A stretch of 51,096 nt of DNA from Clostridia bacterium (GTDB lineage Bacteria > Bacillota > Clostridia > Oscillospirales > CAG-272). The translations under genes and the position numbers were made by a program. The DNA lies in NCBI GenBank assembly GCA_017522125.1, contig JAFXAC010000091.1, positions 1 through 51,096 of the forward strand, given 5' to 3'. This document shows positions 8,776 to 27,667 of the stretch, one piece after another. Every line of letters starts with the position of its first letter. The stretch's first letter is position 1. The notes beneath the pieces were generated by a model, which ran no database searches, was not told the origin of the DNA, and was given only the letters and a program-made list of their open reading frames with translations.

Positions 8776-8816
8776 AAAAACAGGAAGAAATGCAAGCATT
8801 TCTTCCTGTTTTTTTC
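8776..8816. terminator. Bidirectional terminator between convergent genes
   Basis: A stem (8776-8792 with 8797-8813, loop CAAG) is flanked by A5 and T7. It serves mgtE (+) and the S51 peptidase (-). The core GGAAGAAA/TTTCTTCC and the following CCTTAATGTTTGCC closely match the terminator-array junction near 27521-27581. Confidence 0.9.
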
Positions 8817-8823
8817 CTTAATG

Positions 8824-8922
8824 TTTGCCAACGGCAAACACATCATTCATCATACGCGCAGCGTATATCATATTTGCCGCAAGGCAAATATATCATTTTG
8901 GATCCGTTCCGACGGAACGGAT
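8824..8922. repeat. Hairpin array 2
   Basis: Four perfect hairpins: 8824-8839 (GTTTGCC/GGCAAAC core, loop AAC), 8853-8866 (ATACGC/GCGTAT), 8873-8888 (TTTGCC/GGCAAA, loop GCAA) and 8902-8922 (ATCCGTTCC/GGAACGGAT, loop GAC). Linkers are CATCAT- or ATATCAT-like. In the sense of the minus-strand peptidase gene the array starts directly after its stop codon (8923-8925) and ends at the terminator. Confidence 0.8.
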
Positions 8923-22598: not shown

Positions 22599-23222
22599 AT
22601 GTTTGAAGAAAAAGAATTTCACGGCTTAAAATATCTCGTGCGCTATCCTGCGGGGCACAAGGCGGGCGACAAGCACCCGACCATACTGTTTCTGCACGGC
22701 GCGGGCACGCGCGGCGACGACCTTGGAATGATAAGGGCAAACTCGTTCTTCCGCATCACGGGAGAGTATGAGGATTTCCCCTTCGTCTGCGTTGCGCCGC
22801 AGTGCAGGTGCGTTGACACCTGGTATGATTATTGGGAAACGCTCAAGGCGTTTGTGAAGGATATTCTCGCGTCGGATTATTGCGACGAGCATCGCTTTTA
22901 CGTTATCGGCAACAGCATGGGCGGCTACGCCACCTGGCAGATGGGCATCAGTATGCCCGAGGTCATTGCCGCTATCGCGCCCATTTGCGGCGGCGGAGTT
23001 GCTTGGAACACGGGCAGGCTCAAGGACGTTCCCGTGTGGGCGTTCCACGGTGCTAAAGACCCCGCGGTAAATATCGCCGAGTCCATCAGAATGGTCGACG
23101 GCGTAAACAAGCGCGGCGGCAACGCCAAGCTGACGGTATACCCTGACGTTCAGCACGATTGCTGGCTCAACGCTTACGCAGACCCTGCGCTCTTCGAGTG
23201 GTTTCTGTCACATACGAAATAG
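22599..23222 (+). CDS. Alpha/beta hydrolase (esterase/dienelactone hydrolase-like)
   Basis: A 207-residue cytoplasmic protein with the alpha/beta-hydrolase fold. The oxyanion segment is ILFLHGAGTRGDD. The nucleophile elbow GNSMGGYATWQM has Ser at about residue 109. Asp is in WAFHGAKDPAV and His in PDVQHDCW. Similar small esterases accompany polysaccharide loci and may remove acetyl or feruloyl groups; the substrate is not shown. The ATG at 22599 is preferred because GAGGGC lies seven bases upstream; a TTG at 22587 is in frame. It is the last gene of the transporter operon and its stop codon abuts hairpin array 3. Confidence 0.82.
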   Translation: MFEEKEFHGLKYLVRYPAGHKAGDKHPTILFLHGAGTRGDDLGMIRANSFFRITGEYEDFPFVCVAPQCRCVDTWYDYWETLKAFVKDILASDYCDEHRFYVIGNSMGGYATWQMGISMPEVIAAIAPICGGGVAWNTGRLKDVPVWAFHGAKDPAVNIAESIRMVDGVNKRGGNAKLTVYPDVQHDCWLNAYADPALFEWFLSHTK

Positions 23223-23430
23223 CGTTGTGCCCGTAAGGGCACAACGCATCGATATCAATCCCTTGCGGGATTGTCGATATGTTGCTGACGCAACTCGATA
23301 TGCCTACGGCTCGATATGTTTGCTACGCAAACGAGGGATTGATATCATATCGAAACCGACCGAAAGGGAGGTTATATCGAATTTGACGAAAGGCAAATAT
23401 ATCGAGCTGAGCGTAGCGAAGCATATCGAC
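23222..23430. repeat. Hairpin array 3
   Basis: Clear units: 23222-23247 (11-bp stem, loop GTAA), 23256-23273 (CAATCCC/GGGATTG), 23281-23294 (GTTGC/GCAAC), 23302-23310 (GCC/GGC) and 23318-23332 (GTTTGC/GCAAAC). The linker TCGATAT occurs at exactly seven bases three times (23274, 23295, 23311). From 23333 to 23430 the units are degenerate, but CGATAT words persist (GATATCATATCGAAA, TATATCGAG, CATATCGAC). The first stem starts on the last base of the hydrolase stop codon, and the array ends at a terminator. Confidence 0.82.
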
Positions 23431-23449
23431 AATTGAATACATACAAGAA

Positions 23450-23486
23450 AAAAGGACGGAGAACGCAAAAATCTCTGTCCTTTTCC
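23450..23486 (+). terminator. Terminator after hairpin array 3
   Basis: The stem GGACGGAGA (23454-23462) pairs with TCTCTGTCC (23472-23480), one G-T pair, followed by TTTT. It closes the ABC transporter/hydrolase operon. 23487-23569 has nothing else recognised. Confidence 0.75.
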
Positions 23487-23569
23487 TGTCGGTGGGGAAC
23501 GTATTGTATTGAATTTCGAGAAACTATTATTAAGAGTGCCCCGTTGCAGAGGATATTTATGTAAACAAC

Positions 23570-27520: not shown

Positions 27521-27556
27521 AAAAGCGGAAGAAACTCGCGTTTCTTCCGCTTTTTT
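27521..27556. terminator. Bidirectional terminator for the lipoprotein operon
   Basis: A 15-bp stem (27521-27535 with 27540-27554, loop TCGC) has A4 and T6 flanks. In the minus sense it comes after the lipoprotein stop and hairpin array 4. Confidence 0.9.
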
Positions 27557-27563
27557 CCTTAAC

Positions 27564-27667
27564 GTTTGCCGAAAGGCAAACACATCACTCGCCGTAGGCG
27601 AACATCACTGCGCCAACGGCGCAACATCATTACGGCGAAGCCGTACATCATTTGCGCCAGCGGCGCA
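27564..27667. repeat. Hairpin array 4
   Basis: This is the most regular array. Five perfect hairpins: 27564-27581 (GTTTGCC/GGCAAAC), 27589-27601 (TCGCC/GGCGA), 27609-27623 (TGCGCC/GGCGCA), 27631-27645 (TACGGC/GCCGTA) and 27653-27667 (TGCGCC/GGCGCA). Loops are GAAA, GTA, AAC, GAA and AGC. The linker is ACATCAC or ACATCAT, seven bases, at 27582, 27602, 27624 and 27645 (the last shares one base with the stem). In the minus sense the array lies between the lipoprotein stop (27673-27675) and the terminator. Confidence 0.88.

Follow-up and report, generated by a model that had tools for sequence, protein, structure and literature searches.

A two-armed hairpin array of a Clostridia bacterium as one copy of a dispersed element with ties to S23/IVP genes and Gut-1 RNA

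S23/IVP proteins adopt a pentameric fold that has been solved, and we know of no function for them. Intervening sequences (IVSs) of 23S rRNA that encode S23, for example in Coxiella, are short selfish units with a strong fold that replace a hairpin loop (PMC4990558), and hypotheses on the spread of IVS-like elements go back to 1993 (cited in PMC4990558). Repeats of the REP families carry GTAG or CGTC tags (PMC3733652). Gut-1 has been described as an RNA of the human gut with no known function (Weinberg et al. 2010, PMC2864571), and the literature we searched held none. A constant linker alternating with hairpins, the layout of Gut-1, also characterizes an array that we analysed in 51,096 nt of DNA from a Clostridia bacterium (the whole stretch hereafter termed the window). 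We read this array, with a probability of about two in three, as a gene-less, MITE-like copy of an S23-linked, highly folded mobile element with two inverted arms.

Anatomy and fold of the window array

The array is intergenic, carries no ORF and is flanked by an alpha/beta hydrolase gene and a beta-galactosidase gene. It consists of two inverted arms with four linkers each, and runs from a terminal hairpin through four left linkers and four hairpins, arm3, and four right linkers and three hairpins to a tail (Table 1). The first-pass annotation had reported three copies of the linker TCGATAT at exactly seven bases. Those three (23274, 23295 and 23311) are exact, and each directly separates perfect small hairpins; the count was nonetheless one short on this strand, with a fourth copy ahead of hairpin 1, and overlooked the reverse complement, ATATCGA, which occurs four times in the distal half. 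That half had been described as degenerate and perhaps older, and a grading of unit age along the array had been proposed as a check. It is neither: its four linkers are in place, and left and right halves are equally conserved among copies (81.4% and 81.2% identity, 36 pairs), with no gradient of divergence. At least four exact copies of any single 7-mer in 212 bp arose in 15 of 3000 Markov-3 sequences; four TCGATAT followed by four reverse complements in the second half lie far beyond this null.

Table 1 Positions of the parts of the dispersed unit in the window
Feature	Sequence	Position	Strand	Remark
Whole dispersed unit		~23222..23537	+	Limits of homology between copies
5' terminal hairpin	GCGTTGTGCCC-GTAA-GGGCACAACGC	23222..23247	+	First G also ends the upstream stop codon, TAG
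Left linker L1	TCGATAT	23249..23255	+	Overlooked in the first-pass annotation
Arm1	GATATCAATCCCT	23251..23263	+	Pairs with arm2 or, over 13/13 bases, with arm3
Hairpin 1	CAATCCC-TTGC-GGGATTG	23256..23273	+	
Left linker L2	TCGATAT	23274..23280	+	
Hairpin 2	GTTGC-TGAC-GCAAC	23281..23294	+	
Left linker L3	TCGATAT	23295..23301	+	
Hairpin 3	GCC-TAC-GGC	23302..23310	+	
Left linker L4	TCGATAT	23311..23317	+	
Hairpin 4	GTTTGC-TAC-GCAAAC	23318..23332	+	
Arm3	AGGGATTGATATC	23334..23346	+	Reverse complement of arm1; abuts first right linker
Right linker R1	ATATCGA	23347..23353	+	
Right hairpin 1	AACC-GA-CC-GAAA-GG-GA-GGTT	23354..23373	+	Tandem G.A mismatches
Right linker R2	ATATCGA	23374..23380	+	
Right hairpin 2		23381..23398	+	
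Right linker R3	ATATCGA	23399..23405	+	
Right hairpin 3	GCT-GA-GC-GTA-GC-GA-AGC	23406..23422	+	
Right linker R4	ATATCGA	23423..23429	+	
Terminator-like tail hairpin	AAAAAAGGACGGAGA...TCTCTGTCCTTTT	23448..23484	+	Counterpart after most copies

Folding of the array is far stronger than that of shuffled sequences (z of -9.75 as DNA and -9.59 as RNA; none of 200 shuffles as good). Arm1 can pair either with the adjoining arm2, forming hairpin 1, or over 13/13 bases with arm3, and the two pairings are mutually exclusive. Hairpins of the right arm frequently contain tandem G.A mismatches beneath a GNA or GNRA-like loop. When 11 right halves from different copies were aligned, the linkers were invariant, 10 of 16 stem pairs had changed on both sides, and 95.9% of cells were paired versus 19–49% in slid controls. 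Arm1 and arm3 likewise co-vary between copies and between families, and the closest copy (C29) has a paired change in its 5' terminal hairpin, CCC/GGG to TCC/GGA. CRISPR arrays are built of identical repeats of about 23–47 nt and unique spacers of even length; a CRISPR array is ruled out here by the anatomy, in which only 7 nt stay constant and palindromes of 9–20 nt make up the variable parts.

Other arrays occur in the window. The contrast drawn earlier with the ACATCAY linkers of the 27.6-kb array is real; that array (27521-27667) is one-armed, adjoins a terminator hairpin, lacks the opposite arm and resembles one half of an element with two arms. The wider proposal, that linkers are uniform within arrays and differ between them, holds broadly. 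Free mixing within single arrays, named in advance as the observation that would speak against it, does occur in places: at C58:12361-12697 (CATCAT with ATTTCAC) and at 8776-8922 of the window, where an array behind a terminator-like hairpin combines ACATCAT with TATATCAT. At 1220-1309, four hairpins spaced by ATGGCAT-like linkers make up a further short array. At Rfam gathering thresholds, the sole match in the whole window is a T-box leader (RF00230, 39206-39426), which precedes a LeuA-family gene.

Copies, flanks and relatives

The source genome holds about 14 copies, of which the window array is one. A blastn search of that genome (1.82 Mb, 99 contigs) found 11 further places sharing all or much of the unit in the same order, the closest being C29, with 97% identity end to end, and the others matching at 69–83% (C68, C52 (two), C73, C59, C98, C11, C99, C71 and C47). 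As copies differ by up to 31%, most are not recent. Alignments of copies with their flanks place the left edge of homology at the same base, within 1–2 bp, in most full-length pairs and the right edge about 104–157 bp beyond the last linker, giving a unit of about 320–400 bp whose tail, with its terminator-like hairpin, is common to copies. We took these edges, rather than 23222-23430, as the bounds of the window unit. Most copies have their left end close behind a stop codon. The array has been dispersed as one block. Linker order in clusters of the TCGATAT family, surveyed over 566 kb of the 1.82-Mb genome, follows ++++----, or a shorter or longer form of it, in nearly all cases. Since the whole unit is multi-copy and its order constant, linkers that appear specific to an array are specific to an element family. 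Gain and loss of units does occur on some scale: C71 has one 39-bp unit more than C99, and the short forms C98 and C11 are missing everything between arm2 and arm3. The window unit is thus dispersed, non-coding and discrete at its ends, as MITEs are; distant blastn searches of plasmid and phage collections returned no match to it.

Comparisons with congeners bear on two insertions. In 12/12 congeners the gene neighbouring the C59 copy occurs without the element, and homology begins at the element edge; sigF, which adjoins the C68 copy, ends without an element in 4/4 congeners with a match. Both insertions look lineage-specific on these alignments, although only one flank is conserved in each, so a rearrangement could also have produced the pattern. 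No close orthologue of the hydrolase gene upstream of the window copy was found among the congeners. In another genus, a 288-bp stretch of element and tail is 98.6% identical to C52, and the sequences diverge past their common right end. The C52 unit is enclosed by a perfect flanking stem of 18 bp, with GTA at both sides, and the C68 unit by a stem of 11 bp, with GTTA at both sides; these are the only two copies with apparent target duplications. Over nine copies, flanking stems were barely above, or not clearly better than, mismatched pairs: C52 and C68 are convincing, C59 exceeds background without one clean stem, and C29 and C99 are weak. We rejected a flanking stem as a general rule for copies and treat the stems with their apparent GTA and GTTA duplications as a lead only. 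The window copy has no flanking stem, and no terminal inverted repeats were seen between the two ends of its unit.

A covariance model built on the right half matched in 19/59 genomes, the source genome included, with 9–19 matches in several other genera and families and matches in only 1/12 congeners. Linkers vary by lineage (TCGATAT, GCGATAT, GTGATAT, GTGAAAT), the opposite arm carrying the reverse complement. At some loci of two genomes (G015 and G023) the arms are in reversed order. At L093, L110 and L112 the ATATCGA arm comes first and the TCGATAT arm second, separated by only a short spacer, in an order that resembles a circular permutation. Another genome (G119) carries near-identical copies of the Gut-1 type (L275-L282, L285) whose left end falls sharply at a TAAAAGG...CCTTTTA terminator hairpin, a pattern that hints at a recent burst.

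Links to S23/IVP genes and Gut-1

The small ORF next to several model matches belongs to PF05635, the S23/IVP four-helix bundle. Using a score in which S23 had no part, we detected a two-armed array within 400 nt upstream of 27/56 S23 genes, downstream of 3/56, and in 0/489 control windows from other Clostridia; 29/56 S23 genes had no detected array, and in the element-rich source genome the same score picked out 20/1405 windows. When the full anatomy, including the arm1:arm3 pairing, was required, 20/56 genes had an array upstream and 1/56 downstream (controls 0/1690). The positional link of two-armed arrays to S23 is strong. The descriptor behind the 20 upstream regions (arm1:arm3 with reverse-complement linkers) also selects the window copy, and its membership of an S23-linked superfamily is well supported. 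In the source genome, C44 has two S23 genes with TCGATAT arrays that fit the model of the window family. S23 adjoins only two of the about 14 copies of this family, and the window copy, between its two enzyme genes, has no adjoining PF05635 gene.

At many S23-linked loci a tRNA (or tmRNA) is followed by a terminator, the array and S23, with a tRNA-S23 distance of mostly 205–310 bp. A second context occurs in five genomes (L220, L224, L225, L227, L235), where S23 lies about 60–90 nt upstream of tRNA-Leu with no array detected upstream. Mean identity of S23 proteins is 79% where linkers are the same and 53% where they differ (0/2000 permutations). This correlation shows joint inheritance of linker and S23 and is compatible with recognition of one by the other; joint inheritance can produce it with no binding needed. 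S23/IVP genes have also been reported near CRISPR loci (PMC3936711, PMC10910872), and S23-adjacent hairpin arrays might in some cases pass for CRISPR arrays.

The left half of the window array resembles Gut-1 (Rfam RF01706), with a score of 17.2 bits (E 0.89, 23247-23322) that lies far below the threshold of 50. Arms of some S23-linked arrays score above that threshold, and at L134 and L229 both arms match RF01706, on opposite strands. Gut-1 covers a single arm of an element built in this way. Gut-1 is present in 60/147 genomes of the order, and S23 is found in 54 of these 60 versus 21 of the 87 others (raw counts, uncorrected for phylogeny), so that 21 genomes have S23 without Gut-1. Over the 147 genomes, S23 follows the copy number of the element with a rho of 0.76.

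Competing explanations and described systems

Under the reading of the window array as a gene-less copy of an S23-linked mobile element, the element would have been copied as a block into the 3' end of the alpha/beta-hydrolase gene, and fuller members of the superfamily would be those with the array directly upstream of an S23/IVP gene. The hairpins would fold in single-stranded DNA (or upon transcription of the region), and an S23 of the matching clade would bind arrays of linkers and hairpins from its own family. S23, together with a recombinase or host enzyme, may then help to copy the unit, acting in trans for gene-less copies, with targets in or next to terminator hairpins and the 3' ends of genes. 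We infer the S23 binding, mobilisation by S23, its action in trans and single-stranded DNA as the working form. A broader proposal, which we advance tentatively and at less than even odds, is that S23/IVP and two-armed, GNA-looped arrays form a new class of mobile element. Each S23 clade would recognise its own linker and move its unit (in trans where a copy lacks the gene), with terminator hairpins and the 3' regions of tRNAs as targets; Gut-1 would be one arm of such an element, and the 23S rRNA IVSs would be relatives that choose rRNA hairpins.

The array could instead be chiefly a structured RNA, either a 3'-UTR or terminator-region element or, at S23 loci, a 5' leader; it would influence termination, the stability of the RNA or the expression of S23, and its spread would be incidental. 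Such a role would suit the likeness of the left half to an Rfam RNA, the strong fold as RNA, the terminator-like hairpin of the tail, the left ends close after stop codons, and the many S23-linked arrays located between a tRNA and the S23 start. The loops argue otherwise. Left arms favour T..C loops (69 to 4) and right arms G..A loops (45 to 8), counts that are not independent as the sequences are related; since loop type follows arm polarity, neither transcript has G..A loops throughout. On the G..A strand of these related sequences, GNNA loops have A (25), C (15) or T (13) as their third base and never G (0), so the loops are not restricted to the GNRA type of RNA. GNA and GNNA loops make DNA hairpins particularly stable, and G..A loops on the 3' half of both strands would fit stable hairpins in DNA, of which the GNA-looped ones of Streptomyces telomeres are an example. 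Both strands of the window array fold well, and an RNA role would still require a copying step for dispersal. We consider a chiefly RNA element unlikely.

Two further explanations fare less well. The inverted pairs of hairpin units are BIME-like, intergenic and multi-copy, as expected of a palindromic repeat that is of the REP/BIME type or derives from IS200/IS605 and that a Y1 (RAYT-like) transposase moves; the S23 link would then be secondary. Hairpin sequences vary between units here, however, and the linkers alone are constant; the hairpin units start without a GTAG or CGTC tag (the linkers being TCGATAT and ATATCGA), and no transposase was recognised among the proteins adjoining copies, which were read by eye. 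This makes such an origin quite improbable. Growth in place by adding linker-plus-hairpin units, as first suggested, would account for uniform linkers and for changes in unit number (the additional unit of C71, the short forms), but the whole unit recurs in the same order at many loci, once as a near-identical full-length copy at C29, its second half is an inverted form of the first, and there is no age gradient. We give growth in place very little credence as the origin of the array.

The mobile element we favour resembles several described systems in part. Palindrome arrays of Streptomyces telomeres (PMC7205883) are capped by GNA loops and fold in single-stranded DNA; the likeness is one of working only, as the present element is interstitial and multi-copy and does not lie at chromosome ends. 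Bacterial MITEs and small repeats such as BOX and RUP of pneumococcus (PMC3049150) are likewise short, non-coding, intergenic, multi-copy and folded. Unlike the usual MITE, this element has two inverted arms, constant linkers and freely varying hairpins in place of an ordinary terminal inverted repeat, and its putative helper gene, S23, is not a transposase. Gut-1 shares the alternation of linker and hairpin (consensus linker GUGAAAU) and an occurrence in gut bacteria; as defined it is a single arm, without arm3 or an S23 gene, and the available part of its report (PMC2864571) describes no dispersal. The S23-encoding IVSs of 23S rRNA differ in having one long terminal stem where this element has multi-hairpin arrays, and the window copy lies between two protein genes, outside rRNA, with no ORF. 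Nonetheless, the IVS is also a short, strongly folded, S23/IVP-linked unit, and two copies described here (C52, C68) also sit inside a flanking stem. Many odd intergenic hairpin arrays of gut Clostridia may then be copies of one kind of element. S23/IVP and Gut-1 become tied by position, co-occurrence and linker-specific subfamilies, which bears on the possible spread of IVS-like elements.
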